This document shows, one piece after another, positions 10,403-60,545 of a stretch of DNA of 64,000 bases (position 1 is its first letter; each line of letters begins with the position of its first letter). Where the stretch lies: assembly GCF_003402535.2 (NCBI RefSeq), contig NZ_AP025174.1, positions 124,001 to 188,000 of the forward strand, read 5' to 3'. A program made the translations under genes and the position numbers. Origin of the DNA: Cupriavidus sp. P-10. Lineage in GTDB: Bacteria > Pseudomonadota > Gammaproteobacteria > Burkholderiales > Burkholderiaceae. The notes beneath the pieces are model-generated. The model had not been told where the DNA came from. It was given only the letters and a program-made list of their open reading frames with translations, and searched no databases.

Positions 10403-10789
10403 TCAGGAGCGGGCAACCAAAAGCACGCCACCCAAAATCAGCAGCATGCCGGCCACTCGCATTGGGCCAATCATTTCACCCAGTAGCCAGGAGGCGGCCA
10501 TGGCATTGAGCACATAGCCGACCGACAACATGGGGTAAGCCACCGACACCTCGATGCGCGAGAGACCCACGATCCAAACCACCACGCCAATCCCATATAA
10601 CGCAAGGCCTGCAACTACTTGCCATTGGATCAGCACCTGCAATAGGGCATTCACGAGCGCCGCACGCTCCAGCGGGATAGCTCCCACGGTGCTGACACCG
10701 GCCTTCAACAACAACTGTGCCGCCGCGTTGCACAGGACGCCGGCAAAAAGGAAAGCAAAGCTGGATAGCGCCATCAAGCGATGTGTCAT
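10403..10789 (-). CDS. Small DMT-superfamily membrane transporter (EmrE/ArnF-like)
   Basis: A 128-residue integral membrane protein with four hydrophobic helices and the layout of the EamA/small multidrug resistance group: a first helix with AAQLLLKAG, a GLSRIEVSVAYPMLS segment typical of the third helix, and a final GMLLILGGVLLVARS helix. Such proteins work as dimers; relatives flip undecaprenyl-phosphate-linked sugars (ArnE/ArnF) or export cations. No arn genes are adjacent, but envelope genes (methyltransferase, flippase) lie within 5 kb. The stop is 30 bp beyond a GLLVARS-type end, and the N-terminus begins MTHRLMALSS. Confidence 0.75.
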   Translation of the reverse strand: MTHRLMALSSFAFLFAGVLCNAAAQLLLKAGVSTVGAIPLERAALVNALLQVLIQWQVVAGLALYGIGVVVWIVGLSRIEVSVAYPMLSVGYVLNAMAASWLLGEMIGPMRVAGMLLILGGVLLVARS

Positions 10790-11394
10790 TCAGGACAAAT
10801 GGAATACGCCAGCATCACCGCTCCCGCTGGACGAAGAATGGTCGGCCGCGCCATTGCCCCGAACTGGCCTAAGCTCGTCACAAGGCGGACTATGGCGTGG
10901 TGAAAGTGCGTTCGCTACGTCGCTGGACCAGTAGCAATCTCGCCAAGCGCTACTTGCTGCAAAACTTACCGAACTGCCATTTTTAAGTGCTACCTGCGCG
11001 CGCGCCTTTGGCCTCGGCCTACTATGACCGACGGCGGAGAGCGCCCCAAAAGAACAAAATTGCGAACCGATGCGTTAAATATAACGGCACAAATGGAAAA
11101 TTATATCCACACCAAGCTGACGGGAAGATGACACCAACGTTACCCAAGGACGACATCCCACCACGTCAATTCCATATCCTACCGTCATTGCTTTAAATCG
11201 GCGACTAAACGGCACATTTTCAGCCGCGATGTCTCTTACTCTAAACTCAGGATTACATTCGCGAAAGGAATCGAATTGTTGAGTGCCAAAGAGTAAAGTT
11301 TACTATGCGAGTGGTTGATATAGGCTCAATGTTCGACGGCGCCGGAAAATTGAATCGGTACCAAGAGCAGGGGGGCGTAATAGAGGGTGAAAAC
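10790..11394. other. 605-bp intergenic region, no supported gene
   Basis: The first half has short open frames without support. The second half (from about 11050) is clearly more A/T-rich and probably carries the promoter of the lipoprotein gene at 11395. A diverged copy of the dispersed repeat described at 14329, 16534 and 30772 lies at 11115-11145. Confidence 0.5.
11115..11145 (+). repeat. Diverged fourth copy of the dispersed ~50-bp repeat (core only)
   Basis: The core GCTGACGGGAAGATGACACC aligns with CCTGACCGGAAGATGACGCC of the copy at 30772-30820. The upstream part is too diverged to align with certainty. Confidence 0.35.
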
Positions 11395-11787
11395 ATGAAT
11401 GCCATCCAAGTTGCCGCACCTGCCGCAACACTTTTGATATTGATGTCCGGATGCATTGCGAGTCCAGTCGCACCCTACGACGATGCGCTCTACCCGTATG
11501 CGTATTATGGCGCAAGATCTCCATATTACTCGAGCCAGACTTATGATCCGTATCATCCCTATAGTGGGACGATGCTATATTACCAGCGGCATCGCTCCGG
11601 TGGAAGGCATTTTGGCGATAATCGCGACGGGCATTTCGGCGGCCCCTACGGCCAACATTTTGGAGGGCACTACGGTAACCCGGCCGGCGCGCACAGTGAA
11701 AGCGGCCATGGTGCCGGCCATGGTGGAAGCGATGGGGGCGGGCATGGCGGTGGGCATGGCGGAGGCGGCCATGGTGGCGGACATTAG
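11395..11787 (+). CDS. Gly/His-rich lipoprotein
   Basis: A 130-residue protein started at the ATG at 11395, with GAGGGTGA immediately upstream; an alternative in-frame ATG at 11305 would disrupt the signal sequence. Residues 1-20 form a lipoprotein signal with lipobox LMSGC (Cys20). A Tyr/Pro-rich segment (residues 25-65) leads to a C-terminal half made almost wholly of His-Gly units (for example GGGHGGGHGGGGHGGGH). Such tails usually bind Zn, Cu or Ni. It stands alone. The function is inferred from composition. Confidence 0.6.
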   Translation: MNAIQVAAPAATLLILMSGCIASPVAPYDDALYPYAYYGARSPYYSSQTYDPYHPYSGTMLYYQRHRSGGRHFGDNRDGHFGGPYGQHFGGHYGNPAGAHSESGHGAGHGGSDGGGHGGGHGGGGHGGGH

Positions 11788-32949: not shown

Positions 32950-33490
32950 GTGCAGCCCCGGTGGCCGCGCTGCGGGCGCGGCGGCGCGCGGACCGTGCGG
33001 GTGCCGCGACGGCGCCGCTGGTGGGCCACCAAGGCAGGACTGGGTGTCGCCAGCGCGCGGCAGGTGGAGGTCTTCATTGCCAGGCATCAGCAGCTGACCG
33101 AGCGGGCGCAGGCGCTGGTCGCGCAATCCCCGCGTGGCGTGGTAGTTCCGTGGGAGCCACTGCGCCTGCTGCAGCAAGTCGACGGCTCGCAAGGGCAGTT
33201 CCGCGCGCCGCGCGCGACCTGCACGCTCAACGCGGACAACGATTACGCCTGCCGTGCAGGCATGGCTGGCGCTGCATGAAGCGCCGGCAACCCAGCGGAT
33301 TTACCGCAAGGAGGCCGAGCGTCTGACCCCGCGGACGATTATTGAGCGCGAACGGCCGTTGTCGTCCCTCAACACGGAGGATGCGACGGCCTACCGCTTT
33401 CTGCGGCAGCCCGATACCCCGTGAGTGCTAGGTCAGGCCGGGGAGAACGCGTAGCACCCCCGACTGGCGCCCGTTCACCGGCTGAGGCGC
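32950..33490 (+). pseudogene. Tyrosine recombinase fragment, paralogue of the integrase at 48042
   Basis: This reads VRVPRRRRWWATKAGLGVAS, then TERAQALVAQSPRGVVVPWE and FRAPRATCTLNADNDYA, closely matching residues 142-230 of the intact integrase; after a frameshift it continues as AWLALHEAPATQRIYRKEAE and LNTEDATAYRF. Homology at the DNA level runs to about 33490. Both the N-terminal part and the whole catalytic domain (from about residue 300) are missing, so it is inactive. It marks an older integration by the same recombinase family. Confidence 0.8.
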
Positions 33491-47721: not shown

Positions 47722-48041
47722 GGGCAATTCTCGAAGAAGTGTCGATCATGGCTGGCAAGGCGATCAGATCGAAACGCTGCCGGGCCAGCCAGGTCTGCAA
47801 CGTGTGCGCGAGCCGTATCGCTGGATCCGAGGGCAAGCCTCATCGCGCCAGCTCGCTGTGGATACCGCGCATGACAAAGACCGGTCGCTCTTTATGTCTC
47901 ACGGCGACAAGCATCACCGATGCTAGGGTAGGCCGCCTGTCACAGGGATTACGGGGACATGACAATCTTTCGTGGTCACCTCGGCTATTGTGATAACTAT
48001 CCTTATCGTAATAGCACTGTTAGTGCGCTAAACTGGCGGGC
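47722..48041. other. 320-bp region upstream of the integrase; inverted repeats near its end
   Basis: A minus-strand stretch (PVFVMRGIHSELAR, stop, GLPSDPAIRLAHTLQTWLAR) looks like a remnant of another coding gene upstream of the glycosyltransferase, not identified. The last 50 bases are more A/T-rich and hold two small inverted repeats: GATAA...TTATC (47992-48007) and GCACT-GTT-AGTGC (48014-48026). They could be recombinase-binding or promoter elements of the integrase. Confidence 0.35.
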
Positions 48042-49748
48042 ATGCAATCCCGCCTCACTCAGACCGAGCCGCCACCGCGTGCGCAAGCCGGCTTCCCGGA
48101 TGCCGCCGCGCTCGCCGCGCTGCGCGCCTGGCATGCCGGCCTGTCGAGCCGGGAGGCCGTTGTCCGCTACTTGGGTGAGGCGCGGGCGCAAGGGCAGTCG
48201 TCGCGCGGCGTCCTGGGTCGGATCCGGCGCCAGCTGGCGGGGTATGCCCGCAGCCGCCAGCGCGAGGACCTGGCCCGGCTGTTTGAGATGCCCGCGGCCG
48301 AGCGGGCGCAGCGGGGCCGGGTGGCCGACCAGGCGATCGAATGGTTGCGCGCACTGCCGGCACCGGTGCCGGCCATCAGCGACGACATCGGCCTGTGGCT
48401 GGCGCCGCGCGCGGTCGCGGCGCTGCGGGCACAAGGCATCGACACCCTGGCGGCGCTGACGGTGCGGGTGCCGCGCCGGCGCCGCTGGTGGGCGGCAATC
48501 CCGGGCCTGGGCGCGGCCGGGGCCCGGCAGGTCGAGGCCTTCTTTGCCCAGCACCCGCAGCTGACCGAACGCGCCCGGGCGCTGGTCACACTGCCGGCGC
48601 ATCCCATCGTGGTGCCCTGGGAGCAGTTGCGCCTGCCGCATCAGGTCGACGGCTCGCGCGGTCAGTTTCGCGCGCCGCGCGAGACCTGCACGCTGAACGC
48701 GGACAACGACTACGCGGCGATCCAGGCCTGGCTGGCGTTGCACGAGGCCCCGGCCACGCAGCGGACGTACCGCAAGGAGGCCGAACGCCTGATCCTGTGG
48801 GCGATGATCGAGCGCGGGCGGCCGCTATCGTCACTGACGACGGAAGACGCGACGGCCTACCGTAGCTTCCTGCGTCGTCCGGCGCCCCATGCGCGCTGGG
48901 TCGGGCCCGCGCGGGCGCGGAGCGCGCCCGATTGGCGCCCATTCACCGGCGCCTTGTCAGCGCACTCCACCGCCCATGCTTTGTCCATCCTCGGGGCGAT
49001 GTTCCGCTGGCTGATCCAGCAACGCTATGTGCTGGCCAATCCGTTTGCCGGCATCAAGGTGCGGGGCGGGGGACGTACGGCGGCCTTGGACCGCTCGCAT
49101 GCCTTCACCGAAGGCGAATGGCTGCTGATTCGCACCCTTGCCGATGGCCTGGAGTGGTCGTATGGTTGGGACGCGTCGGCCGCGCAGCGGCTGCGCTTTG
49201 TGCTGGACTTTGGCTATGCCACCGGGCTGCGCGCCAGCGAGTTGGTCGGTGCAAGCCTCGGTGATATCGAGACCGACGACCAGGGCGACCACTGGCTCAA
49301 GCTGGTCGGCAAGGGCAGTCGCGCCGGCCGGGTGGCGCTGCCGCCGTTGGCCCGGGCGGCGCTGGATCATTACCTCGTCGCGCGCGCCTTGCCGGTGTCG
49401 GCGGCGCGATGGGATCCCACGACGCCGCTCGTGGGCGGGCTGGGCCAGGACATGGCAGCCGGTATCACCAGCACACGTCTGTGGCACGTGCTGCGGCGAT
49501 TTTTTGCGCAAGCTGGCGCGCTGATCGCCAACGACCATCCGGCTGCGGCAGACAAGCTGCTGCGTGCCAGCCCGCATTGGATGCGCCATACGCATGCGAC
49601 CCACGCGCTGGCACGAGGCGCGGAACTGACGACGGTTCGGGACAACCTGCGTCATGCCTCAATTTCTACGACCTCAACCTATCTGCACGGTGACGAAGTG
49701 AAGCGGGCACGACAGCTTGGGACAGCCTTCCCAGCCCATCGTGACTAG
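48042..49748 (+). CDS. Tyrosine-type site-specific recombinase with N-terminal extension
   Basis: A 568-residue phage-integrase-family recombinase. All catalytic residues are present: Arg397 (TGLRASEL), Lys424 (GKGSRAGRV), His512 and Arg515 (PHWMRHTHATH), His538 (LRHASISTT) and the nucleophile Tyr547 (TSTYLHGD). Residues 1-210 are an Ala/Arg-rich extension with helix-hairpin-like repeats (VRVPRRRRWWAAIPGLGAAG), followed by a SAM-like core-binding domain. It begins 45 bases before the Shedu-type gene, which suggests it carries the adjacent defence genes. A related fragment exists at 32950-33490. The start ATG follows a modest ribosome binding site. Confidence 0.92.
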   Translation: MQSRLTQTEPPPRAQAGFPDAAALAALRAWHAGLSSREAVVRYLGEARAQGQSSRGVLGRIRRQLAGYARSRQREDLARLFEMPAAERAQRGRVADQAIEWLRALPAPVPAISDDIGLWLAPRAVAALRAQGIDTLAALTVRVPRRRRWWAAIPGLGAAGARQVEAFFAQHPQLTERARALVTLPAHPIVVPWEQLRLPHQVDGSRGQFRAPRETCTLNADNDYAAIQAWLALHEAPATQRTYRKEAERLILWAMIERGRPLSSLTTEDATAYRSFLRRPAPHARWVGPARARSAPDWRPFTGALSAHSTAHALSILGAMFRWLIQQRYVLANPFAGIKVRGGGRTAALDRSHAFTEGEWLLIRTLADGLEWSYGWDASAAQRLRFVLDFGYATGLRASELVGASLGDIETDDQGDHWLKLVGKGSRAGRVALPPLARAALDHYLVARALPVSAARWDPTTPLVGGLGQDMAAGITSTRLWHVLRRFFAQAGALIANDHPAAADKLLRASPHWMRHTHATHALARGAELTTVRDNLRHASISTTSTYLHGDEVKRARQLGTAFPAHRD

Positions 49749-49793
49749 CCGAGTGATCCGTTGCAAAAAAAGGAACCCGCGTGAGGGGAACAT

Positions 49794-51215
49794 ATGGAAG
49801 GTGAACCAGTGCGTGGCGCCGAGTCAGCCGCCGTCTACGACCACGGCGAAGTCATGAATCCGAGCTTCCGGCTGGCAGTAGGTGCCGACGGAAGTCTTCC
49901 CTGCAGGGATCTCTACGTCCAGACCTTTGCACGGTCGGAACATGGGCCGGATGATTGGATTTCGCAGCCGGAGGGGCAGTGGCATTTGCTGGCGCGGATT
50001 CTGCCGCACAGCATCGTGACGTATCCCGTTCACACCAATCCCCATGCGCAGCGCTATTTGAGGCCTCGGCATGGGCGCATTCGGACAATCATCCTCCAGG
50101 GTGGCGAAGACCATGCGATGCCCGATAGTCCGGAGGCCGCGGTCTCGCTCATTGAAGCGGTGCTGCCCTGGCGTGCCTCCAATGATTGCGCTTACGGCCT
50201 TGGACTGACGAAGGAGCTGGATGCAATCTGGTTGGGCATCCAGCAGATTTCTGGTGTCGACACGCTCATCGTGACAAAAGACGGTGAGACCAAGCTCGAA
50301 GGCAGTGCGGTTGTGATGCCCGAGCGAGAATTGGACAGGCTGCGGCGCGCGCTGGACAGGGCGAATCGGCATGTGCGCAGTCGTGTCCAGTTGGCGAAGA
50401 CCACTCACATCCGGAATACCCTGCTGACCCAACTAATCCCCGAGCGCTTTCCGCCGATCGTCCAAGTCGGAGCCACCGGCGAACTGGTCGAGGTGCGTCT
50501 GGATCGAGCGCGTCAATCGACTGCGGCAGTTCGCGCGCAGCGACGCGCTACCGTTCGGGCCGTGCGCGAGAATGCCGCGCTGATTGCCCACGAAGCCCCC
50601 GAGGAGCTAATGGAGCTCCACGCGGAAATCGAGCGGGTAACCTTGGCCAGCATGATCGAGCGTTATGAGGGGATGCTGGCACAGACGCTACCGGAAGGCC
50701 GGTGGCAGTCCTTTTTCGAGCACAACATCTTCATCCTGACGATGCTGTTCGCTCGGCCCGTTCGCCTGCTTCATACCCAGTTTCACGCCCAAGGGTCGAG
50801 TTTGAGTGGCTCTGGGGCGCAAGTTGGCGATTTCTTGCTCGGGGAACAGGGGCAATCGCTGGCGATTGTCGAGATCAAGAAGCCTTCGACCATGCTCATG
50901 CTGAACGCCGCGTACCGGAACAGCGAGGTGTATGGACCAAGTGCCGAGCTGAGCGGGGCCATTACGCAGGTGCTGTACCAGCAGAGTGCCCTGCACAGTA
51001 ACTGGCTGGCTCACCAGATTCGGTCGGAGCTACGTGATTCCCGGCCCGACGCGACGAAATGCGTGATTATTGCCGGCTTGACGCCCACGGAGGAACGGCA
51101 GCGGCGCAGCTTCGAAATTTTCCGCAACGCGTGCAAGAATGTCGAGGTGGTAACGTTTGACGAGCTATTAGGCAAGCTGCGGGTTCTGTTGCAGCACCTG
51201 GCGCCCGCGAGTTGA
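49794..51215 (+). CDS. sduA: Shedu-type anti-phage nuclease (DUF4263)
   Basis: A 473-residue protein with an N-terminal sensing region and a C-terminal PD-(D/E)xK nuclease domain of the Shedu family. The active-site signature is clear: Asp346 in VGDFLLGEQG, and Glu360-x-Lys362 in LAIVEIKKPST, with a helix containing a conserved Gln (GAITQVLYQQ near residue 393). The FEHNIFILTMLF segment at ~305-316 matches the usual start of the nuclease domain. The ATG follows GAGGGGAACAT. It lies 45 bases after the recombinase and 67 bases before the OLD nuclease gene. Shedu proteins cut DNA as oligomers on phage infection; the trigger for this variant is unknown. Confidence 0.8.
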   Translation: MEGEPVRGAESAAVYDHGEVMNPSFRLAVGADGSLPCRDLYVQTFARSEHGPDDWISQPEGQWHLLARILPHSIVTYPVHTNPHAQRYLRPRHGRIRTIILQGGEDHAMPDSPEAAVSLIEAVLPWRASNDCAYGLGLTKELDAIWLGIQQISGVDTLIVTKDGETKLEGSAVVMPERELDRLRRALDRANRHVRSRVQLAKTTHIRNTLLTQLIPERFPPIVQVGATGELVEVRLDRARQSTAAVRAQRRATVRAVRENAALIAHEAPEELMELHAEIERVTLASMIERYEGMLAQTLPEGRWQSFFEHNIFILTMLFARPVRLLHTQFHAQGSSLSGSGAQVGDFLLGEQGQSLAIVEIKKPSTMLMLNAAYRNSEVYGPSAELSGAITQVLYQQSALHSNWLAHQIRSELRDSRPDATKCVIIAGLTPTEERQRRSFEIFRNACKNVEVVTFDELLGKLRVLLQHLAPAS

Positions 51216-51282
51216 GCAGACAACACCGATCCCTGTACTAAGCCGGTTTGCTGCGTCACCGGAATCTGAGAAGGTCGAATTC

Positions 51283-53355
51283 GTGTATATCTCCAAGATC
51301 CATATCGAGAATTTTCGCCGGTTTGGCGCGGGCGATGACGCCTTTGAGCTGTCGCTGAACCCCGGCCTGACAGCCTTGGTCGGGGAAAATGACGCTGGCA
51401 AGACGGCCATCATCGACGCGTTACGTCTGGTGATTGGCACGCGAGACCAGGAGTCGCTGAGACTGGATAGTACCGATTTTCATCAGTCACCCGCGGGGGC
51501 GCGTGCCAAGGACATCAGAATTCAGCTCACGTTTTCGGCGTTGACGCCAAGCGACAGAGCCGCATTTGCCGAGTATCTGACCTACCACGAAGACGGCCTT
51601 GTCGAGCCGCGTCTCATTGTGACGTGGATTGCTCGGCGGACGGAGGGTGGGGCAGGATTGCGCAAATACCTGCCGGTGGAATGGCGGACGGGAGCCATTG
51701 GTGATGGCCCCTCACTGGACTCGGAAGCCCGCTTCCAGCTTCAGGCAACCTATCTACGGCCGTTGCGTGACGCCGAACGCGCGATGTCGGCAGGGCGGGG
51801 GTCCCGGCTATCGCAGATTCTGCAGCATACAAAGGAGATCAAGGACGGCGTCGAGTTTGACGTCCAGGCGCTCCACACGCTGAAGCCCGAACATCTTAGC
51901 GTATTAGGCGTCGGTGACTACACGAATTACCTAATCGAAACGTCGCGCGGTGTGACAGTGACCCGCCAACGGCTGAACGACGACTATCTCAGGCATCTGT
52001 CCTTCTCTGGGGATACTCTGAATGCTCGCGTCCGCATTAACGGACATCGCGACGACAGTACCCGGTTGCGAACGCTGCTCGAGAAGCTTGAAGTCGCATT
52101 GGGCTCAAACGACCTGTCGGAAGACGCACACTCTCGTGGCCTGGGTTCGAACAATGTCCTGTTTATGGCCTGTGAGCTTCTGCTTCTAGGCACGGAGGAG
52201 GATGGCTTTCCGCTGCTAATCATTGAGGAACCGGAGGCTCACTTGCATCCGCAACGTCAGCTGCGGCTGATGGGCTTCCTCGCGGATCAGGCATCTCAGG
52301 TGCGGCCGGATGGCCAGCAAATTCAAGTCATCCTGACCACGCACAGTCCGAATCTGGCTTCCCACGTGAAACTGGACAACCTCGTACTCGTACGGGACGG
52401 TCGCGCCTATCCGATGGGCGAGGGCCAGACCAAGCTGGAGAGAACCGATTACCGCTTCCTGCAACGGTTCCTTGACGTGACGAAGGCAAACCTGTTCTTC
52501 GCCCGTGGGGTCGTGATCGTCGAGGGGGATGCGGAAAACATCCTGCTTCCGACGCTAGCCAGGCTTGTGGGACGTGATTTCGAACGGTTTGGGGTGTCCG
52601 TCGTCAATGTTGGGGGTGTCGGACTCAGCCGTTATGGTCGGATCTTCATGCGTCGGAATCCAGGCATTAGCCGCGAGCTGAAAGTCCCGGTCGCGTGCAT
52701 TACCGACATGGATGTGATGCCCGATTGTGCGCCGCAAATTGTGGGGAAGATCGAGGCGGGCGCGACCATCCCCAAGCTGCCCGGTTCCAAGCGCCGCTGG
52801 AGGGTAAAGAGCGACTTCTTGCCGGGAGGGCTCGAATCGAGGCGGCACAAGATCCGCGATAAAGCACAGGAGCAGCAGGTTCGCACCTTCGTGGCGGACG
52901 AATGGACGCTTGAGTACGATCTTGCGTACTTCGGCTTGGAGAAGGAACTGTGGTTGGCGGCTGCCCTGGCCGACGCCGATGACAAGCTGAACGAGAAGAA
53001 GGCGACGCCATTTCGGGTTATGTGGGTCGCTTTGCATGCCTACGAGGAGATCGCTAGCCTGTCGCAAGAGGAACGTTGCTCGCACGTGTACGAGCCCTTC
53101 GCCAGATCAGGGGGCGTGTCGAAGGCGATTGCCGCGCAGTATTTGGCGGAACTGTTGGAGTCGAGCGTGCGGCGGGACGAGAAGGAACGGGATCGTTTGC
53201 TTTGGCGCCTTCCTCAATATATCCGGGATGCGATCGCTCATGTGACGGAGCCGTTTGAACCGCTACCTACGTCGACGCCTGAGGCGAAGGCTGCTGACAA
53301 TGCGCTTGACGACGCGAGCTGCCCAGCGATGACACAGGGGGCCGATCATGCGTGA
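51283..53355 (+). CDS. OLD-family ATP-dependent endonuclease (GajA-like)
   Basis: A 690-residue class 2 OLD nuclease. The N-terminal ABC-type ATPase has Walker A GENDAGKT (34-41) and Walker B LLIIEEPEAHLHP (Glu315/316), with the H-loop TTHSPN (His354). The C-terminal TOPRIM nuclease domain starts with VVIVEGDAEN (Glu414) and has DxD-type acids (CITDMDVMPD, Asp475, Asp477). The initiation codon is GTG at 51283 with GAGAAGG upstream. It overlaps the UvrD-like helicase by 8 bases. OLD plus UvrD-like helicase is the Gabija arrangement (GajA plus GajB); this copy is longer than typical GajA (about 580). Confidence 0.85.
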   Translation: MYISKIHIENFRRFGAGDDAFELSLNPGLTALVGENDAGKTAIIDALRLVIGTRDQESLRLDSTDFHQSPAGARAKDIRIQLTFSALTPSDRAAFAEYLTYHEDGLVEPRLIVTWIARRTEGGAGLRKYLPVEWRTGAIGDGPSLDSEARFQLQATYLRPLRDAERAMSAGRGSRLSQILQHTKEIKDGVEFDVQALHTLKPEHLSVLGVGDYTNYLIETSRGVTVTRQRLNDDYLRHLSFSGDTLNARVRINGHRDDSTRLRTLLEKLEVALGSNDLSEDAHSRGLGSNNVLFMACELLLLGTEEDGFPLLIIEEPEAHLHPQRQLRLMGFLADQASQVRPDGQQIQVILTTHSPNLASHVKLDNLVLVRDGRAYPMGEGQTKLERTDYRFLQRFLDVTKANLFFARGVVIVEGDAENILLPTLARLVGRDFERFGVSVVNVGGVGLSRYGRIFMRRNPGISRELKVPVACITDMDVMPDCAPQIVGKIEAGATIPKLPGSKRRWRVKSDFLPGGLESRRHKIRDKAQEQQVRTFVADEWTLEYDLAYFGLEKELWLAAALADADDKLNEKKATPFRVMWVALHAYEEIASLSQEERCSHVYEPFARSGGVSKAIAAQYLAELLESSVRRDEKERDRLLWRLPQYIRDAIAHVTEPFEPLPTSTPEAKAADNALDDASCPAMTQGADHA

Positions 53356-55342
53356 ACCGATTGCGCCAAGCTTCAGCCCTATCAGCGATACGGAAATCGC
53401 GTGGGCCTGTGCCATCATGGGGTTGCCAGATAACGCCTTCTCGGCCGAGGGGAGCGAGGATCCGCGGCTTACCGTCATGCGGTCCCTGGACACGCTAGAT
53501 GTCGAGGCCTGTCCTGGCAGCGGGAAGACAACCTTGTTGGTCGCGAAACTGGCAATTCTCGCCAACCGATGGACATCGAGCCGCCATGGGATCTGTGTGC
53601 TATCGCATACCAATGCCGCCAGAACTGAAATTGGCGATCGCTTGAGCGTATCAAGCGCCGGCGTACGCCTGCTGCGCCACCCACACTTCGTTGGCACAAT
53701 CCATTCGTTCGTGAATGAGTTCCTGGCAGTGCCTTGGCTGCGTTCCAAGGGATTCCCCATCAGGGCGATTGATACCGACATTGCACTGCAGGATCGGTGG
53801 CGCCGGATCCCATGGAACATTCGACTCGGTCTCGGCAAAAAGCGTATGGGATGGTGGTCCCTGACGTACACCAGACCGGATTACACGGGAGGGCCGAAGG
53901 AAGAGTATTCCAGTGCAACGCCGACATACAAGGCCATGCTTGACGCCTGCCAGGAGTCGACAGCGGCGGGGTACTATTGCTTTGATGAAATGTTCATTTG
54001 GGCATCGGAATTGCTCGATCGTCACCCGCATGTCATCCACACGATTCGTCGTCGCTTTCCCTTCGTGTTTATTGACGAAGTCCAAGATAATTGTGAGTTG
54101 CAAGCAGCATTTCTGCACCGGCTGCTCGTGGACGGCGAGGATCCTGTGATTCGTCAACGCTTCGGTGATTCTAATCAGGCGATCTATCATGCATCAGGTG
54201 CCGGCGGCGCCGTAACCGATTGCTTTCCGGGGTCCCAAAAGGCCGATTTGCCGAATAGTTTTCGATTTGGGAACGAAATTGCCTTGGTGTCTGCGCCGCT
54301 GGGGGTTCGCCCCCAAGCGCTTGTTGGGCAGGGACCGACGCCAGCGAAAGTCCAGCACGCCACCTGCAAGAACACGCTCTTTCTGTTCGATGACACGTCG
54401 GTATTGGATGTGCTTCCCGCCTATGCGCGCCATTTGCTCAAATCCTTTGATCACGAGGCGCTCGCGAGAGGCGAGTTCACCGCGGTCGCTGGAGTGCATC
54501 GGTCCGATAAAGACGATCATTTGCCACGGTTCATGGGGCACTATGCGCCTGACTACCTTCCCGAACTCGCCGGCCGTCAGCCCAAACCAGCCTCGTTTCT
54601 CCAGTTTCTCGCGCGCGCAAGGCTGGAGCTGGAGGAAACCCGAAGCACCCATCCAGTAACGCGATATTGCGCGGAGGCAATGCTCAAGCTCATTGAGCTT
54701 TCAAGTCCGGATCAAACCATCCCGACTGGCCGCCATGCTCATCGGCACCTGCTCTCGCTACTCAACAGCGACGGGGATCGCAGCAGCTATCTGACGATTC
54801 TGGATAGTCTCATCGTACAGAGAGGTCAGGTGTCTGCGGACCAATGGCAGGACACGATCCACCCAAAGTTGATTGCCTTAGCCGCTGGCGTCACGGGAGG
54901 CCCCATCACCAACGGGGCGGCCCTCCAGTTTCTCGCATGGACAGATGAGTCGACTGCCCAAGAGAGTGCTGACGCGAAACGTTTGGTCAATCAATTTCAG
55001 TACCCTGACAAGAATCCAAAAGTGTCGATTCGCCTCGCATCGATTCACGGGGTGAAAGGGGAGACGCATACCGCCACGCTAGTCCTCGAGTCCTTTCAGA
55101 AGACGCACCAACTGAAGGCGCTGCTTCCGTGGCTCACCGGAAAAAAGCCAGAAGCGAAGAGCGACAACACGGCAGAAACTCCGACGCTACAGGAACGTCT
55201 GAAATTGCACTACGTTGCCATGACCCGACCTTCCCATATGCTGTGTTTGGCGATGCGACGCGATACCCTGGGCAAGGGCGATCTAGCGGCTTTTCAGGGA
55301 AGAGGGTGGCATATCGTTGACTGCAATGCTGCCGAAACCTAG
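53348..55342 (+). CDS. UvrD/PcrA-like superfamily 1 helicase (GajB-like)
   Basis: A 664-residue SF1 helicase. Motif I is CPGSGKTT (Gly59-Lys60-Thr61), motif Ia LSHTNAARTEI, motif II (Walker B) FIDEVQD (Asp243, Glu244), motif III FGDSNQAIYH, motif V SIHGVKGETHTATLV and motif VI HYVAMTRPSHML (Arg627). Its coding region overlaps the OLD gene by 8 bases, so the two are co-translated. Such helicases in Gabija activate or regulate the nuclease. It is longer than the usual ~500 residue GajB, with an extra insertion between motifs III and V (around residues 300-560). The transcript ends at the terminator at 55539. Confidence 0.87.
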   Translation: MREPIAPSFSPISDTEIAWACAIMGLPDNAFSAEGSEDPRLTVMRSLDTLDVEACPGSGKTTLLVAKLAILANRWTSSRHGICVLSHTNAARTEIGDRLSVSSAGVRLLRHPHFVGTIHSFVNEFLAVPWLRSKGFPIRAIDTDIALQDRWRRIPWNIRLGLGKKRMGWWSLTYTRPDYTGGPKEEYSSATPTYKAMLDACQESTAAGYYCFDEMFIWASELLDRHPHVIHTIRRRFPFVFIDEVQDNCELQAAFLHRLLVDGEDPVIRQRFGDSNQAIYHASGAGGAVTDCFPGSQKADLPNSFRFGNEIALVSAPLGVRPQALVGQGPTPAKVQHATCKNTLFLFDDTSVLDVLPAYARHLLKSFDHEALARGEFTAVAGVHRSDKDDHLPRFMGHYAPDYLPELAGRQPKPASFLQFLARARLELEETRSTHPVTRYCAEAMLKLIELSSPDQTIPTGRHAHRHLLSLLNSDGDRSSYLTILDSLIVQRGQVSADQWQDTIHPKLIALAAGVTGGPITNGAALQFLAWTDESTAQESADAKRLVNQFQYPDKNPKVSIRLASIHGVKGETHTATLVLESFQKTHQLKALLPWLTGKKPEAKSDNTAETPTLQERLKLHYVAMTRPSHMLCLAMRRDTLGKGDLAAFQGRGWHIVDCNAAET

Positions 55343-55875
55343 CGCGCTACGCCGGTACCCCCGTAGCCTGGTTGATTACGCCCGATTTAGATTGCCATCT
55401 TGTAATGCGTGCGCAACATCACGGTTAGCTACCGCCTTGTACATTGGAGACTGATGGGCGCTTCCGAGCTTGGCGGGGTAAGCGGAGACATCCATCGCGC
55501 CAGCTGACGCCTCTCTCCCAGGGGCCCAGCATTCTATAAGTCCCCGCAGCATCCTAGGCTGCGGGGACTCTGTTTTTTCTGACGCACACAGATCGCGGCG
55601 AAAAGCCAAAGGTGTCATCCGGCGTATCGCCGTAAATGCCGTCTTGTTGCGCGAGTTCAGTCGGGTCGCTAGAGCCCATGATTACCTGGTTTCGTTCAAG
55701 AAGATCGCCATGTGGTGGCACATCTTCATCATTGTGCTCGGTCAGAGCGCAGCGGCCGCTCGCGACTTCCGGGAGGCGTCCGCCAGCTTCGATTCCCTCA
55801 TTTATAGGGGTTGACGATAATCCCCGCTGGGGATATAAGTGACCAGGAAAATTAGACCAATATAAATTGGAATAA
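55343..55875. other. 533-bp gap containing the terminator of the defence operon
   Basis: Besides the hairpin at 55539 no supported feature is seen. A minus-strand frame at 55554-55886 has protein-like composition (110 codons) but ends inside the terminator hairpin and lacks a clear start, so I do not call it. The last 60 bases are A/T-rich and probably contain the promoter for the genes that follow. Confidence 0.45.
55539..55578 (+). terminator. Strong intrinsic terminator after the helicase gene
   Basis: A perfect 12-bp stem (AGTCCCCGCAGC / GCTGCGGGGACT) with a 7-base loop is followed by CTGTTTTTT. It lies about 200 bases after the stop of the helicase and separates the recombinase-nuclease operon from the next cluster. 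Confidence 0.9.
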
Positions 55876-56124
55876 ATGGGATCCAAGCAGAAACGCTATC
55901 CAGCCGCCCAGCAGGATTTTCTGCGGGAGGCAATGAACCAACTCGGGATGACGCGCGAAGAGTTTGCGGCACGCCTCAGCGTGGCCAAGCGGACGCTCGA
56001 CAAGTGGCTCTTACCGAGTGAGTCATCTGACTCCCGGGGCTTGCCAGAGATGGGCCGTGCATACATCCAAGAGATTCTGGCGTGGCACCACAATTCAAGT
56101 TCAGATTCGGGGTCGCCTCGATAG
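55876..56124 (+). CDS. Small helix-turn-helix DNA-binding protein, 82 aa
   Basis: An 82-residue protein with one HTH of the lambda-repressor-like/plasmid type: LREAMNQLGMTREEFAARLS followed by VAKRTLDKWLLPSESS and a short C-terminal tail. It should act as a transcriptional regulator, probably for the cluster that follows on the same strand. GGAATAA upstream serves as a weak ribosome binding site. It starts a new transcription unit after the terminator. No metal or ligand domain is visible. Confidence 0.6.
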   Translation: MGSKQKRYPAAQQDFLREAMNQLGMTREEFAARLSVAKRTLDKWLLPSESSDSRGLPEMGRAYIQEILAWHHNSSSDSGSPR

Positions 56125-56321
56125 GGTGTAAATGACAGGGGACCCGGCGGCGGTCTTTCGACAGGGCTGCCGGCGAAATGTCTACTGGTCCGACATCATG
56201 CATGAGCAAGTTTCCTCCTTCACCAGCGATCGTTCAGGAGCCGGAAAAGAGGGTAGCAATGCGGTCAAATGGCTCGGGCCCGATTGTCATACCCGTTGTG
56301 AGAGCAATAGGAAATGCGAGA

Positions 56322-56882
56322 ATGGATAAGAACATGCTCAGGCTTCTCCAGGAGCGTTTAGGCAGAACAGCGATTGGCGCTTCGACTGCCCGTGGAATGG
56401 GGCCTGTCGGGACGATTCAAGCAGCGAGGTCCTTCCTGCAGGCGTGCGACCTGAGGTCCATCAAGGCGAACTCCCCGCAGGCCTATCGCCGACGACTGGA
56501 TGAGTTGACCGACGCATTGATCGAACGTCTCCCGGCGGACGCACAGCATTGGGGGAGCGCGCGAAAGTTCGTCAACATCTTTCTGCGCAACTGTGCCTAC
56601 AACCGTTTCATGTGTGAAGCATATCGCCTTGACCGGGTGGAGGCGTGGATGGAAGTGCCGCTAGATAGCCACGTCGCGGCTGGTCTGAAGCACGACGCGC
56701 TGGAGGCCAATCTTGACCTAACGTTGCCACGCTGGAAAACGGTAATCGGCCTGACGCCGGAACTTAGCGATAGCTGGCAGAGGGTGGCCCATGCTATTGC
56801 GCAGAGGGGAGGAATCCACCGCGTGCACCTCGACGTCAGGTATTGGAACGGGGCGCATTTGCAGCTTCAGGCGAGGCATTAG
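56322..56882 (+). CDS. Unrecognised protein, 186 aa
   Basis: I do not recognise this family. The start is put at the ATG at 56322 (MDKNMLRLLQERLGRTAIGA), with AGGAAA 7 bases upstream; a longer frame from 56178 has a low-complexity leader. The protein is soluble, helical in the N-terminal two thirds (SFLQACDLRSIKANSPQAYR, then RRLDELTDALIERLPADAQH) and ends in a beta-like section (VHLDVRYWNGAHLQLQARH). It is followed 9 bases later by the membrane protein gene, so both are probably co-translated. Confidence 0.6.
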   Translation: MDKNMLRLLQERLGRTAIGASTARGMGPVGTIQAARSFLQACDLRSIKANSPQAYRRRLDELTDALIERLPADAQHWGSARKFVNIFLRNCAYNRFMCEAYRLDRVEAWMEVPLDSHVAAGLKHDALEANLDLTLPRWKTVIGLTPELSDSWQRVAHAIAQRGGIHRVHLDVRYWNGAHLQLQARH

Positions 56883-56891
56883 GAACGAGCA

Positions 56892-57398
56892 ATGGACTCA
56901 TCGCTGGCCAAGGCGGGGCGTATGGAAGCCGCTTCAAACGAAGATGCGGTATTGAAAGCATTTGCTGCGGAACATTCCCATGATCAGTTTTCGATCAACC
57001 GGAGCGCGAGCCTCGGTGCTGCCGGCGTATGCGTCGCAATTGCACTGACCATGGTACAAACTCAACTCAGGACGAATGATGCGGTAGCCAGCGTCATCTG
57101 TTCCTGCATCGCAATTCCACTTTTTCTTCTTTCCGCGTTTATTAACGAGTACTTCTTGTTCTTGGGGGAGAAGTCGTATGGTTTTTACGAACATGTGCGT
57201 ATCCCGCTACGTCTGATCAATGCATCTGCCGGCGGATTGCTCCTGATTTCTTTTGCATACGCCTCGCACAGTGTTTCGTCGTATGCTTTTTATGTGGTAC
57301 TGGTTGCGTCGGTCGCGGCCGCTGTTGGCTTTGGGCGATTTCACCGTAAGCTGGAATCTTGGCTTGCGAAACAAGCTATTGAACGACTCGAGCCCTAA
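56892..57398 (+). CDS. Four-helix membrane protein, 168 aa
   Basis: Not assigned to a family. Four hydrophobic segments are clear (about residues 40-58, 64-84, 106-124 and 130-148), with a soluble N-terminal ~35 residues and a basic C-terminal tail (GFGRFHRKLESWLAKQAIER). Small membrane proteins next to defence genes often act as membrane-damaging effectors, so a role as an abortive-infection effector is possible. It overlaps nothing and lies 9 bases after the preceding gene, suggesting an operon. Confidence 0.6.
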   Translation: MDSSLAKAGRMEAASNEDAVLKAFAAEHSHDQFSINRSASLGAAGVCVAIALTMVQTQLRTNDAVASVICSCIAIPLFLLSAFINEYFLFLGEKSYGFYEHVRIPLRLINASAGGLLLISFAYASHSVSSYAFYVVLVASVAAAVGFGRFHRKLESWLAKQAIERLEP

Positions 57399-57505
57399 GA
57401 CCCAGATGGCTATCTATGATCGTAATGTCGAATGGCCCCGCTGCGTGGCTGCGCCGTTCGAGGTCGGCGCACAACGAAGAACCCCTGAGATGCGAAGAAG
57501 CTAAC

Positions 57506-58075
57506 ATGCCGAAGGCCAATGCGAAACGCTTGTCTGAACTGAGATTCGGCAATGATGTAGGGGCGATCAACGCAGCCCTGGCTAAAGGCGAGATTACCGA
57601 ACGGCAAGCACAGAACATGCTGAAGTTCATCGCGACTGCGACTGCAATCAGGGAGCATCCTTTGCAGACATATCCCATCCAGGACCAGGCTGGTCAGTTT
57701 TTGGGAGAGGTCACTGCTCGCCCTGATGGGACCTGGTCAGCGCGTCGATATGGACCCGAGTACAAGGCAGGCGGCGCGGTCCTCGCAAGCGCGGAGGAGG
57801 CCGAGCGTTACGTCCGCGGCGTCCCTCAGGCGACTGGGACGGAGGTGGGTGTCGAGATCGGCGACCTTGATCTGGCAGCATTGCTTGGTGAGCCCACCAG
57901 TGCGCTGCTCGTAGCGGGACTCCAGGCGCTCTGGCGCGAGCGCGTGGCCGCACGCAGCGCGACGTTGTCTGTTGCGACCATGCGCGGCGTAGAGCCACCT
58001 GCAGAAGAGATGTTTGGCATTGAAGAAGTTGCTGCGCTACTACGGCGCCTCGGGGCCGCGCCGGCTTCAATTTGA
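57506..58075 (+). CDS. Unrecognised soluble protein, 189 aa
   Basis: The likely start is the ATG at 57506 (MPKANAKRLSELRFGNDVGA) with GAAGAAG upstream; the frame is open from 57416. The sequence has a helix-rich N-terminus (KGEITERQAQNMLKFIATAT), a short beta-like middle (GQFLGEVTARPDGTWSARRY) and a helical C-terminus. No known domain is visible. It overlaps the next frame slightly. It belongs to the same-strand cluster 55876-58628. Confidence 0.5.
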   Translation: MPKANAKRLSELRFGNDVGAINAALAKGEITERQAQNMLKFIATATAIREHPLQTYPIQDQAGQFLGEVTARPDGTWSARRYGPEYKAGGAVLASAEEAERYVRGVPQATGTEVGVEIGDLDLAALLGEPTSALLVAGLQALWRERVAARSATLSVATMRGVEPPAEEMFGIEEVAALLRRLGAAPASI

Positions 58076-58230
58076 TCGAAAAAGCAATCGAAATCACAAC
58101 GACGATAGGCCCCGCATCGCTGATACGGGCGTGGCGGAAGCCGTGCGATAGTCAGCGAACACGGCGGGCGCTTTACCCGAAGTTGCGCGCCGTCGTTACA
58201 GCTGAGTCACCACCGAAAATGAGGGAATCG

Positions 58231-58425
58231 ATGAGTTTAGCGGCAAACAATGGCACGGTGCTCGAACGTCTGATGAACGCTGCCACTGACATCTTCCTCG
58301 GCGCACTGAAGCACACTGACCATGGCGGTCGCTTCAAGGGGCTGTTTACACTGAACGTCGATGGGGTACCAAAGCCTGTGTTATTGGTCGGCAGCGCGCA
58401 TGGCAGCCACGAAGACGGTGAGTGA
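58231..58425 (+). CDS. Small unrecognised protein, 64 aa (possibly part of a split gene)
   Basis: Start chosen at the ATG at 58231 (MSLAANNGTVLERLMNAATD) with GAGGGAAT upstream. The product has a helix then a beta-like hairpin (RFKGLFTLNVDGVPKPVLLV). Its stop overlaps the GTG of the next frame (GTGA), so translation of the two is coupled. Alternatively the two form one protein of about 131 residues interrupted by a frameshift; sequence alone cannot decide. Confidence 0.45.
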   Translation: MSLAANNGTVLERLMNAATDIFLGALKHTDHGGRFKGLFTLNVDGVPKPVLLVGSAHGSHEDGE

Positions 58426-58628
58426 TTGCGGTCCTTAACCCGGATTCCGAGGTGAACGAAAAGCTGCGCCCGGGGGTTGCCTACAATGGTGCGTCCTTAA
58501 AGGAAATCGTCGCGGGTAGGTGTGATGCCATGGTCCATGTATGGATTGACGCGTACAAGAGCGACTCTTTCACGATGCTCGAGAAGTACACGGCGCGTGC
58601 GTCTGTCGGGCCGAAGTTCAAAGTCTGA
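58422..58628 (+). CDS. Small unrecognised protein, 68 aa, GTG start
   Basis: Starts with GTG overlapping the preceding stop by four bases. It reads VIAVLNPDSEVNEKLRPGVA, then SLKEIVAGRCDAMVHVWIDA and ends KFKV. The fold looks alpha/beta; no family is recognised. It may be the second half of a split gene with 58231-58425. Confidence 0.4.
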   Translation: MIAVLNPDSEVNEKLRPGVAYNGASLKEIVAGRCDAMVHVWIDAYKSDSFTMLEKYTARASVGPKFKV

Positions 58629-58645
58629 AATGGGCTGGAGACGCC

Positions 58646-58783
58646 ATGCCGGCACTGACTCTTGCGGATTCGCCTAGACTTGCGATCAACGTTCCGCGGG
58701 AGGCCGCAGGGTCCCGTAGTCAAGACGCCGACCGGGCCAATGTTCTGCTAGCGATGCATGGCGAACCGCCGGAACACCTGTAA
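58646..58783 (+). CDS. Very small protein, 45 aa
   Basis: ATG with GGAG 7 bases upstream, then MPALTLADSPRLAINVPREA and a stop at 58781-58783, 9 bases before the HEPN-CBS gene. The short length makes it uncertain, but the ribosome binding site and spacing suggest a real member of the following operon. It lacks a hydrophobic segment. Confidence 0.35.
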   Translation: MPALTLADSPRLAINVPREAAGSRSQDADRANVLLAMHGEPPEHL

Positions 58784-58792
58784 AGCAGCGAA

Positions 58793-59563
58793 ATGAAAAC
58801 ACTTCAGTGGGAAGAGCGCCTCCACTATCGCGACCGCTTGCGCGCATCGCGCTATGCAGCTTTGGCAGACGCCGAGGCGTTCAGCGAGATCTGTTTCGCT
58901 GTGGAGGCAATAGGTCTTCGCCTGGATGGAAGGGAGGCGACGATGAATCAATACTTCCACCGGATACGAGCATTAGCGGAAGACTCTGTTGCATTCAGCG
59001 AAATGCCTCACCGATTTCCGCAACTGTTCTCTCGCTTTGATGCCCTATACAAAACCGTGCAAATCGCGCGCAACGACGCCATGCACGCCGGCATATACGC
59101 GCGACATGTCACCACCGCAGCGATTGAATTGTGCATAGGTTTGGAGGAGGCCTTGATGAAAGAGCAACAGTTGGTACGAACGAAGGTCAAGGACTACATG
59201 GTCCGGTCACCCATCATCGTGCATCCCTGGCAGCCAGTTGCATACGCTCGCCAGCTGATGCTGATGCATTCGTTCACGTTCCTCCCTGTCAAGATCGGCG
59301 ATTGGAAGCTGGTTCCAGAGGTATCCATGGCGAAATTCTTGCGACGACATGATGACAGGAAGTTGGCCCTGGGCATATCTATTCAAGACGCTGCGGGCTT
59401 GGAGAACAATGCTCTCGACCTCCTTACGGCGCACGTGGTGGGGCCGGAGGACGAGGTGTCTGACCTCCTCAGCGGTGCGCAAGCGAATCAACCAACACTG
59501 TGGTTAGTCGACGATGGTCATGCTGGGCTCGCTGGCGTGCTGTCCCCGTTCGAACTGATGTGA
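58793..59563 (+). CDS. HEPN-like / CBS-domain protein
   Basis: A 256-residue protein with two parts. Residues 10-120 are all helical and contain the HEPN-RNase-like motif RNDAMH (Arg93-Asn94-x3-His98; HEPN proteins use RNxxxH). Residues 128-256 resemble a CBS pair, a module that binds adenine nucleotides: the first repeat begins VKDYMVRSPIIVHPWQPVAY, and the second ends with TLWLVDDGHAGLAGVLSPFE. If correct, a nucleotide-sensing domain controls an RNase, as in abortive-infection effectors. It is followed 16 bases later by a DUF2971 gene, so the pair is probably one operon. A DNA-repair or housekeeping role cannot be excluded. Confidence 0.6.
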   Translation: MKTLQWEERLHYRDRLRASRYAALADAEAFSEICFAVEAIGLRLDGREATMNQYFHRIRALAEDSVAFSEMPHRFPQLFSRFDALYKTVQIARNDAMHAGIYARHVTTAAIELCIGLEEALMKEQQLVRTKVKDYMVRSPIIVHPWQPVAYARQLMLMHSFTFLPVKIGDWKLVPEVSMAKFLRRHDDRKLALGISIQDAAGLENNALDLLTAHVVGPEDEVSDLLSGAQANQPTLWLVDDGHAGLAGVLSPFELM

Positions 59564-59579
59564 CGCGGAAAAGAACGAT

Positions 59580-60545
59580 ATGCAAGGGACAGAGTTATAC
59601 AACGCGCTCGTGCCCGCACTGTGGGGCGATGTGGACGAGGACAAGCACTTTCCTGTGGCGCAGCCGTTGCTCGCCCACTATACGTCGGTGGCAAACTTGG
59701 TCAATATCGTGAAGGGAGCGGAGCTTTGGTTCTCCAATCCTCTCAACATGAATGACTACGAGGAGATGCGGTACGGGTTGAGTGAGGGCATGCGCGCGGC
59801 GGAATCGCATGCGCTCCTCCGGGCGACTTGCGAAGAGCACGGCTACTATGCGGAGTTCATCGAAAGCCTATCGACTTGCTACCGGCGGTTTGAGAGTGAG
59901 CACGCGTTTGACACGTATGTCGTTTGCTTTTCGAAGCATGATGAGGCCAAGGATGTCGATGGTCGCCTATCGATGTGGCGCGGGTACGGTGGAAATGGTA
60001 GTGGCGCAGCCATCGTGATTGATACAAAGAAGATCAATGCAAACGAACAGTCACCATTCATCATCGCCCCCGTCGATTATGGCACCGCCGAAGAGCGAAG
60101 GGCATGGATAAGTGAAAGGCTTGATGTTCTCGCCGCGGAATTGAAGCGGCAACAGGTGCGAAAGGACGGTGCCCCAATGGCCGCAGCGGCGTTCTTCGAG
60201 CGCTTAAAGCAGTTCGCCTTGTTCTCGAAGCATCGCGGATTTGAGGAAGAGAAGGAGTGGCGGGTCGTCTATTTCAGAGATAGAGATTCGGCGGGGCGTC
60301 TTTCCGCCATGTTCGGCTACCACATTGGCGCAGACGGAGTGCATCCGAAGCTGAAGCTCAAGTTGGCGCCGATCGACGGAGTCACCGGCGATGACTTCGG
60401 TCTTGACAATATTGTGCACCAAATCATTCTCGGGCCGACGCATACAGGTGTATCAAGGCTGGCCGCACTTAGGATGCTGCAACTTGAACGCCCCGCGCTT
60501 GCAAGTCGATTGAGGGCCTCCTCGACGCCATTCCGGCCGTCGTAA
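59580..60545 (+). CDS. DUF2971-domain protein
   Basis: A 321-residue protein of the DUF2971 family. Conserved features are the start LAHYTSVANLVNIVKGAELW and NPLNMNDYEEMRYGL near residues 32-70, the MWRGYGGNGSGAAIVID segment near residue 138 and the WRVVYFRD block near residue 222. The family has no established activity; members are found in mobile and defence loci. The tight spacing (16 bases) to the HEPN-CBS gene implies a joint function. It ends at 60545, with no obvious terminator. Confidence 0.7.
   Translation: MQGTELYNALVPALWGDVDEDKHFPVAQPLLAHYTSVANLVNIVKGAELWFSNPLNMNDYEEMRYGLSEGMRAAESHALLRATCEEHGYYAEFIESLSTCYRRFESEHAFDTYVVCFSKHDEAKDVDGRLSMWRGYGGNGSGAAIVIDTKKINANEQSPFIIAPVDYGTAEERRAWISERLDVLAAELKRQQVRKDGAPMAAAAFFERLKQFALFSKHRGFEEEKEWRVVYFRDRDSAGRLSAMFGYHIGADGVHPKLKLKLAPIDGVTGDDFGLDNIVHQIILGPTHTGVSRLAALRMLQLERPALASRLRASSTPFRPS

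Follow-up and report, generated by a model that had tools for sequence, protein, structure and literature searches.

Genes for two phage defences, Shedu and Gabija, lie side by side on one strand of a Cupriavidus sp. P-10 contig, and the same pairing recurs in diverged genomes. We lean slightly towards reading this as the repeated stacking, in a strand-uniform cassette, of two complete and autonomous defences directed at DNA ends. Judged from sequence, the pairing is no local accident and has arisen several times with different gene versions, which suggests that the two systems cooperate well without being a single machine. Shedu would, in our preferred reading, complement Gabija, and the present sduA and gajAB copies are both probably active against phages. 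Defence systems have mostly been catalogued singly, and adjacency is easily dismissed as island clutter; the same two end-directed systems meet here repeatedly with unrelated partner versions, an argument for functional stacking that is specific and can be tested.

Genes and domains of the cassette

The analyzed window is a stretch of 64,000 nucleotides (NZ_AP025174.1, positions 124,001 to 188,000). Its open reading frames agree with the gene order, positions and spacings given in a preliminary description of this DNA. On the forward strand, a tyrosine recombinase gene (48042–49748, 568 aa; Pfam DUF3701 and Phage_integrase) is followed after 45 bp by sduA (49794–51215, 473 aa) and, after a further 67 bp, by gajA (51283–53355, 690 aa, GTG start), which overlaps gajB (53348–55342, 664 aa) by 8 bp. 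Pfam and a PADLOC run on the region likewise bore out the assignment of the last three products as a Shedu nuclease, an OLD nuclease and a UvrD-like helicase. A predicted intrinsic terminator on the forward strand (55539–55569; 12 pairs, nine of them G-C, and a T-tract) begins 196 bp past the gajB stop, but terminator-like sites between 46500 and 56500 were fewer than the shuffled mean (5 versus 7.7), so that only the strength of this stem is notable. Promoter-like sites in the same interval were at chance level (2 observed, 2.2 expected). The three genes sduA, gajA and gajB probably share one transcript.

SduA matched the PADLOC model PDLC00380 with 721 bits over residues 10–471. Its SduA_C/DUF4263 PD-(D/E)XK domain retains the conserved D, E, K and Q, and the putative catalytic residues D346, E360 and K362 were invariant in 28/28 aligned proteins. 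The nuclease domain also matched the solved B. cereus Shedu structures 8ti9 and 8ti8. The N-terminal ~245 residues form a subfamily-specific part and a putative sensor. Structure comparison did not tie this part to a known end-binding clamp, and a match to E. coli SduA over residues 22–471 was not decisive (rmsd about 17). A fold search with the N-terminal part gave no clear match among those listed; the domain was modelled only within a longer protein chain, so the missing match does not argue for a new fold.

GajA combines an OLD-type ABC ATPase with an OLD-like TOPRIM domain (Pfam AAA_15; PF13175, 110 bits; PF20469, 60.5 bits) and is adjoined on the same strand by the UvrD-like helicase GajB (UvrD-helicase; PF00580, 78 bits). 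PADLOC Gabija matches cover almost the whole length of both proteins (GajA, PDLC00099, 672 bits over 1–657; GajB, PDLC00105, 594 bits). Residues G34, K40, E316/E318, H354, E414 and D475 were present in 10/10 aligned GajA proteins and D477 in 9/10; G57, G59, K60, T61, D243 and E244 of GajB were present in 10/10. Comparisons of the window with loci L021 and L009, respectively, gave dN/dS ratios of 0.143 and 0.117 for sduA, 0.134 and 0.151 for gajA and 0.185 and 0.193 for gajB, and show on this measure that all three genes are under purifying selection. Both Gabija proteins had been described as longer than typical. This holds against B. cereus GajA and GajB, but such lengths are ordinary for the subfamily; Shedu-free relatives in R. 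leguminosarum (L132) and B. cepacia (L133) are annotated with 689/665 and 685/667 aa, respectively, which rules out protein length as a mark of a special Gabija.

Recurrence of the Shedu–Gabija pairing

Within the Shedu subfamily represented here, a Gabija or Gabija-like pair occurred within 5 kb of Shedu in 9/32 sequence groups, compared with 1/29 other-Shedu loci (Fisher p = 0.0135) and 2/40 when 11 HamA loci were pooled with these (p = 0.0089). The small HamA set, serving as an island-clustering control, contained one positive locus, with an OLD TOPRIM within 5 kb; taken by itself, it did not differ significantly from the subfamily (p = 0.41). Significance fades when two weak cases are set aside (7/32 versus 2/40, p = 0.068), namely L099, with Gabija 2.8 kb off and three intervening genes, and L081, with 174 bits for GajA, 75 bits for GajB and no PF20469 match. 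When L062, a partial case, was counted as positive among the controls, p was 0.097. Three Shedu groups, including one positive (L108), had been found using a Gabija-linked Shedu query; dropping them left 8/29 (p = 0.0136). The 32 groups omit L009 and L118, where sduA is split, and L123 (182 bits), and five Shedu matches below the Pfam cut-off (G043, G289, G295, G996 and G817) were excluded unfetched. The subfamily loci are mostly plasmid-borne, while the control loci come from whole-genome assemblies, and several stretches break off where their contig ends (L075, L102, L115, L118 and L119 among them), so that neighbours there could be missed.

The nine paired groups have eight distinct best-matching GajA models and three gene arrangements, divergent or convergent in five. 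The preliminary description had named absence of the three-gene order elsewhere as evidence against it, but the order was found in diverged genomes: in Cupriavidus and Sphingomonas, in Citrobacter-type plasmids and, where the Gabija match was weaker, in a genome from a different class within the phylum. Four groups have the order sduA-gajA-gajB on a single strand, the gaps being roughly 67–156 bp. In 48/48 plasmid records, the match to the diverged Citrobacter-type trio covered at least 80% of the trio. A Shedu search of the phages collection gave no match. Viral contigs yielded 11 Shedu loci, one of which (L116) repeats the Citrobacter-type trio; no GajA relatives were found in the viral-contig scan. 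On the Shedu tree the pairing was scattered, with seven changes against a shuffled mean of 8.1 (69/300 shuffles were as low). Subfamily members also adjoin type I restriction–modification (R-M), IetAS and MkoA-like genes, and some lie inside type I R-M operons. The literature searched contained no earlier report of a recurrent Shedu–Gabija cassette, and the two main Shedu mechanism papers may say more. In the portions available to us, neither PMC9519451, in which PD-T4-8 shares DUF4263, nor PMC12629846, on islands, reports the pairing.

Recombinase, core site and element boundaries

The recombinase belongs to the Tn4401 TnpR subgroup, as defined in the part of PMC8138268 available to us, and is 67.7% identical to Klebsiella plasmid loci labelled Tn4401 family resolvase TnpR. 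On its sequence, Tn4401-type transposon resolvase is a more exact name than integrase. Directly upstream on the same strand is a dif-like core site (47985–48014; a 12-bp arm, a 6-bp spacer and a 12-bp arm) with a degenerate left arm; the window has this single match, where 0.02 would be expected. Both arms are perfect in the related loci L009 and L024, the right arm is kept in L023 and nearly so in L124, and no site was found within seven mismatches in L125. A second copy was not found in the window. Genome-wide, the core-site pattern returned five sites against four for a reversed-pattern control, so that, apart from the core sites next to recombinases, the hits do not exceed chance.

Collinear DNA homology to L009, L024 and L023 starts at 47982–47985, and homology with Cupriavidus sp. 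LEh25 spans 47982–55350, limits that at first sight resemble the ends of an element. The motif TAGYGCGCTA occurs close to both ends of the latter stretch. A tnpA-site-recombinase relative (L023) is present elsewhere in the genome. In the window, tblastn gave no match to the L023 tnpA, and the sequence most similar to the L023 terminal repeat differed from it at 15 of 38 positions. The DUF3701 recombinase and its core site are thus accompanied by neither tnpA nor terminal inverted repeats around the operon. We rejected the ideas that the recombinase is a defence component or that it integrates a 7.4-kb unit, given that the window held no second core site, tnpA or close terminal repeat.

The preliminary description had called the operon recombinase-linked. 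The gene looks like a stray transposon resolvase outside the defence, only incidentally linked to it, because it is of transposon type, is shortened in one of two own-genome copies and has no relative by tblastn in the sequence retrieved around each of the eight remaining Shedu–Gabija pairs. Close to the Sphingomonas pair (L089) are a Tn3-type tnpA (44% to the L023 tnpA) and a tyrosine recombinase other than the present one, which counts against Tn3 parts being wholly incidental; neither tnpA nor the present recombinase was seen by tblastn at the other seven pairs.

Interpretation and comparison with known systems

In the parts available to us, PMC12904381 describes Shedu as DNA-end directed and end-activated, and PMC12407980 describes Gabija as DNA-end directed, with PA14 Gabija blocking end-joining of linear DNA. 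In the proposed arrangement each defence would act alone. According to published work, Shedu binds free DNA ends and cuts nearby, and Gabija acts on linear phage DNA shielded from RecBCD and blocks end-joining and circularization. A phage with bare ends would be met by Shedu and one with ends capped against RecBCD by Gabija, and we propose that the two are repeatedly joined because together they cover both phage options. If true, this division would predict which phages escape and why two nucleases outdo one.

That the genes are ordinary defence-island neighbours, brought together in mobile hotspots that gather many systems, Gabija being common, and adjacent without functional meaning, is a substantial possibility, though short of an even chance. 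The scattered pairing, the unrelated GajA families, the other neighbours of the subfamily and the OLD TOPRIM near one HamA locus are all as such clustering would have it, as is sduA damage where gajAB is kept. The earlier idea of a combined system is supported in part, in that the order recurs and adjacency exceeds the pooled controls; the excess loses significance under the strictest count (p = 0.07), which again suits clustering. Against mere clustering stand the full count of 9/32 versus 2/40, the four groups with short same-strand gaps and the trio kept in every matching plasmid record.

Tight spacing and recurring order would also suit an obligate composite with SduA as a third subunit or a substitute for the GajA nuclease, which we regard as very improbable. 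The conserved GajA ATPase and TOPRIM residues and the same Gabija subfamily occurring as a two-gene operon with proteins of similar length speak against it, as do the five divergent or convergent groups. Shedu identities showed no correlation with those of GajA (rank correlation −0.22, p = 0.87; for GajB the value was 0.25, p = 0.08), and a test for co-evolution of Shedu with its Gabija partner did not find it. Of four Cupriavidus copies, two have a damaged sduA beside an intact gajAB, which means that the pairing is not maintained strictly. Neither joint inheritance nor joint loss of the trio was thus seen, an obligate system is not supported by these comparisons, and the earlier proposal that Shedu replaces the Gabija effector falls with it. 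A nuclease relay, in which GajA, or elsewhere a type I restriction enzyme, introduces breaks into phage DNA and Shedu, recruited by the ends so created, completes the degradation, is hardly more probable. It would draw on the end activation of Shedu described in PMC12904381 and on subfamily members within type I R-M operons, but in 23/32 groups the sequence examined contained no Gabija closer than 5 kb, consistent with Shedu autonomy, and the PA14 report of blocked end-joining (PMC12407980) points elsewhere. More broadly, but still unlikely, the subfamily may be a plug-in end-nuclease that joins unrelated DNA-targeting systems and works with them in relay or in shifts, the partner making, exposing or capping phage ends and Shedu destroying those beyond its reach. 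Its partners in this reading range from eight GajA models to type I restriction operons whose genes overlap, IetAS and MkoA-like genes.

The stacking that we prefer can be set against known systems. The recombinase has the DUF3701 and catalytic domains of the Tn4401 TnpR subgroup (PMC8138268) and, like the Tn3-family tyrosine resolvases described in the accessible part of PMC7157771, a core site upstream; unlike a Tn4401-type transposon, the window showed no tnpA and no sequence closely resembling the L023 terminal repeat. The overlap of an OLD-type ATPase/TOPRIM nuclease gene with a UvrD-like helicase gene is that of Gabija, but here gajA is preceded at 67 bp by a Shedu gene in the same orientation, and the two Gabija proteins are members of a long subfamily that also occurs alone. 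SduA shares its nuclease domain with B. cereus Shedu but differs in its subfamily-specific N terminus and in recurrently adjoining other DNA-targeting systems. The nearest parallel is V. cholerae VSP-II, where, according to the part of PMC12137116 available to us, a Shedu gene (VcSduA) directly adjoins the DNA-targeting system GrwAB, the two are reported to be independent and they are rarely together outside V. cholerae; unlike here, GrwAB is a type IV restriction system, and VcSduA carries a GHKL ATPase at its N terminus.

Gene content and copies of the Cupriavidus locus

Four genes on one strand make up the locus: a DUF3701 tyrosine recombinase (48042-49748; Pfam), sduA (49794-51215; PADLOC PDLC00380, 721 bits), gajA (51283-53355; PDLC00099, 672 bits) and gajB (53348-55342; PDLC00105, 594 bits). 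The recombinase and sduA are separated by 45 bp, sduA and gajA by 67 bp, while gajA and gajB overlap by 8 bp. Pfam and PADLOC confirmed the recombinase, Shedu, OLD nuclease and helicase genes of the preliminary description. A sequence scan placed a terminator-like stem of 12 pairs with a T-tract at 55539-55569; promoter-like and terminator-like sites taken together showed no excess over shuffled expectation. Beyond the stem lie an 82-aa ORF (55876-56124), annotated as helix-turn-helix in a Cupriavidus oxalaticus T2 plasmid (L024), and a series of mostly unknown ORFs (56178-60545) conserved with this plasmid and, as far as fetched, with the second genomic copy L021; the last encodes a DUF2971 protein weakly matching candidate defence family PDC-S31.

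The ~9.08-Mb genome carries this second copy on another contig (C3), where the 5' end of the recombinase is missing and sduA, gajA and gajB are 97%, 98% and 96% identical to the window genes. L021 also retains downstream ORFs, with ~96% DNA identity to window positions 48689-59627. All four genes are present in Cupriavidus sp. LEh25 (L009) and in the T2 plasmid, the nearest named plasmid record to the operon (99.3% identity across 99% of the 7.6-kb query). At the level of sequence comparison, dN/dS values of 0.11-0.21 (where defined, comparisons with T2 sduA excluded) show purifying selection on sduA, gajA and gajB. Values rose to 0.26-0.87 with T2 sduA because the frame is shifted along one stretch of that gene. 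Its N-terminal half contains this short frame-shifted stretch and a deletion, and LEh25 sduA has an internal stop; T2 gajA has zero codon differences from the window and T2 GajB is 99.5% identical. Damage therefore affects sduA in two of the four Cupriavidus copies and the gajA or gajB ORF in none. Since split sduA ORFs also occur in two further loci of the window-type Shedu subfamily (L015 and L118), decay is not peculiar to Gabija-linked sduA.

The recombinase and its core site

In PMC8138268, a TnpR subgroup of tyrosine recombinases is characterised by the DUF3701 domain at the N-terminus of its members and by the Tn4401 transposon. The window recombinase carries DUF3701 (Pfam) and is 67.7% identical to loci labelled Tn4401 family resolvase on Klebsiella plasmids. 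Directly upstream, at 47985-48014, a pattern scan found a dif-like site made of two 12-bp arms around a 6-bp spacer; the window holds this single match, where 0.02 were expected. The site is perfect in LEh25 and the T2 plasmid; its right arm is retained in L023, another stretch of the same genome, and nearly so in L124. L125 lacks a comparable site even when up to seven mismatches are allowed. Collinear homology with LEh25, T2 and L023 begins at the site. Gene order in L023 is Tn3 transposase (PF01526, 514 bits), core site, recombinase and a terminal repeat resembling the Tn3 repeat consensus. The window holds neither the L023 tnpA nor a close match to its terminal repeat. Our reading is that the window recombinase is a displaced resolvase, with its core site at a recombination boundary. 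The recombinase is followed by other genes in three more loci (L124, L125 and L023), and tblastn found no relative of it in the fetched stretches around the other eight Shedu–Gabija pairs.

L023 itself (6527-11411) is a compact Tn3-like element, with a single terminal repeat by scan and a cargo-free interval between recombinase and repeat. A further gene for a DUF3701-type recombinase is present in fragments at window positions 32959-33482, with 71-78% identity to the one at 48042. In the Sphingomonas locus (L089), the stretch slightly upstream of the trio (488-4322) encodes, divergently, a Tn3-type transposase (tnpA) and a tyrosine recombinase of 257 aa that differs from the one in the window.

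Recurrence of the Shedu–Gabija pairing

Relatives were collected by Shedu sequence only, from seven genome-contig loci, 20 of 112 matched plasmid records, five further plasmids retrieved with the Sphingomonas Shedu query, 11 viral contigs and Shedu loci above the Pfam cut-off in three PF14082 searches of 399, 398 and 385 genomes. Profile separation was clean (subfamily members ≥358 bits, other Shedu ≤134 bits), with L123 (182 bits) excluded. After dropping L009 and L118, which have split ORFs, 45 proteins formed 32 groups at 70% identity.

In nine of these groups, a gajA–gajB pair or similar genes lie no more than 5 kb from sduA, directly adjoining it in eight. The order sduA-gajA-gajB on one strand was found in Cupriavidus, the Citrobacter-type locus, Sphingomonas and L081, the locus of a genome from another class of the same phylum; pairs are convergent in Sinorhizobium meliloti, a Pseudomonas aeruginosa plasmid (L030) and Agrobacterium tumefaciens (L099, 2.8 kb apart) and divergent in Rhizobium gallicum and Phyllobacterium. 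Best GajA models were PDLC00099, 00072, 00063, 04168 (twice), 00098, 00102, 00090 and 00086, the last a weak match in L081 (174 bits). GajB was the best PADLOC match for all nine helicases, again weakly in L081 (75 bits); lacking a PF20469 match, L081 is therefore termed Gabija-like. On the P. aeruginosa plasmid, Shedu and its convergent Gabija adjoin the tmexD-toprJ1 efflux resistance cluster.

Outside the subfamily, Gabija lay within 5 kb in one of 29 Shedu loci (L064, order gajA-gajB-sduA). Two loci showed partial resemblance. In L062, a 954-aa UvrD-like ORF overlaps Shedu and an OLD-like ORF lies ~2 kb away; L084 has just an OLD-like ORF. HamA (PF08878), found in 11 of 399 genomes, had an OLD TOPRIM within 5 kb once (G154), scored by PF20469 alone. 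Fisher tests of 9/32 gave p 0.0135 against 1/29, 0.0089 against pooled controls (2/40) and 0.41 against HamA alone, in a comparison of a mostly plasmid subfamily set with mostly whole-genome controls, using local GajA/GajB profiles derived from the positives and L064. Removing L099 or L081 (8/32 versus 2/40) gave p 0.019, and leaving out the three groups retrieved with a Gabija-linked Shedu as query (8/29) gave p 0.0136; with both L099 and L081 removed, 7/32 gave p 0.068 against 2/40 and 0.097 against 3/40 with L062 counted. These strict counts slightly lowered our confidence that two autonomous defences are repeatedly brought together.

The same counts bear on the rival account, in which Gabija is one of the ordinary neighbours of a defence island, as does what else adjoins subfamily Shedu: it sits within type I restriction operons whose genes overlap (L094 and L110), upstream of REase_I (L117), beside IetAS genes (L012 and L031) and beside an MkoA-like gene (L097). 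We regard island clutter as a possible but somewhat doubtful explanation, and complementary stacking of Shedu and Gabija as just on the probable side of even.

L094 and L110 contain an S subunit, Shedu, a HAD hydrolase and HsdR. In L062 (4695-8788), the non-subfamily Shedu and UvrD-like ORF overlap by 4 bp, possibly forming a different Shedu–helicase operon, and a 311-aa UvrD-like ORF lies immediately upstream of Shedu on a Pseudomonas frederiksbergensis plasmid (L096, 4754-5689).

Probable independence of the partners and relation to known defences

Mapped onto the Shedu tree, presence of Gabija required seven changes (shuffled mean 8.1; 69 of 300 as low) and is therefore scattered. Over nine pairs, Shedu and GajA identities were uncorrelated (rank correlation -0.22, p 0.87), and Shedu and GajB gave 0.25 (p 0.08); between L030 and L099, GajA is related (37%) and Shedu merely 30% identical. 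Two of the Gabija types have Shedu-free relatives. Sphingomonas gajAB matches six Sphingobium plasmid records, and among the four matches listed the alignment begins beyond sduA at ~74% DNA identity; no Shedu was seen in the SYK-6 gajAB neighbourhood. Window-type Gabija in Rhizobium leguminosarum and Burkholderia cepacia has no annotated Shedu within 4 kb, with GajA 61-63% identical between the window and these relatives. An assembled trio can spread: in 48 of 48 plasmid records, under 11 first-word organism names, the Citrobacter-type trio is matched across 80% or more of its length with an identity of ≥99%. Among the five matches listed, one is split in two, with an IS630-like element.

SduA retains D346, E360, K362 and Q392, and its nuclease domain matches solved Shedu; the domain arrangement in its model is not reliable (mean pLDDT 76, pTM 0.44). 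GajA and GajB also retain their motifs. According to a review, Shedu binds DNA ends and cleaves at a set distance, and Gabija is active where RecBCD activity is absent (PMC12904381); PA14 Gabija work is reported in PMC12407980. From these published activities and the retained residues, we infer that Shedu and Gabija would be two autonomous end-directed defences, which together might cover bare and capped DNA ends. The combined system first proposed for this apparent operon holds in part, as a recurrent pairing, but a merged machine is not supported. Vibrio cholerae offers a parallel reported in PMC12137116, with Shedu adjoining another, independently working system.
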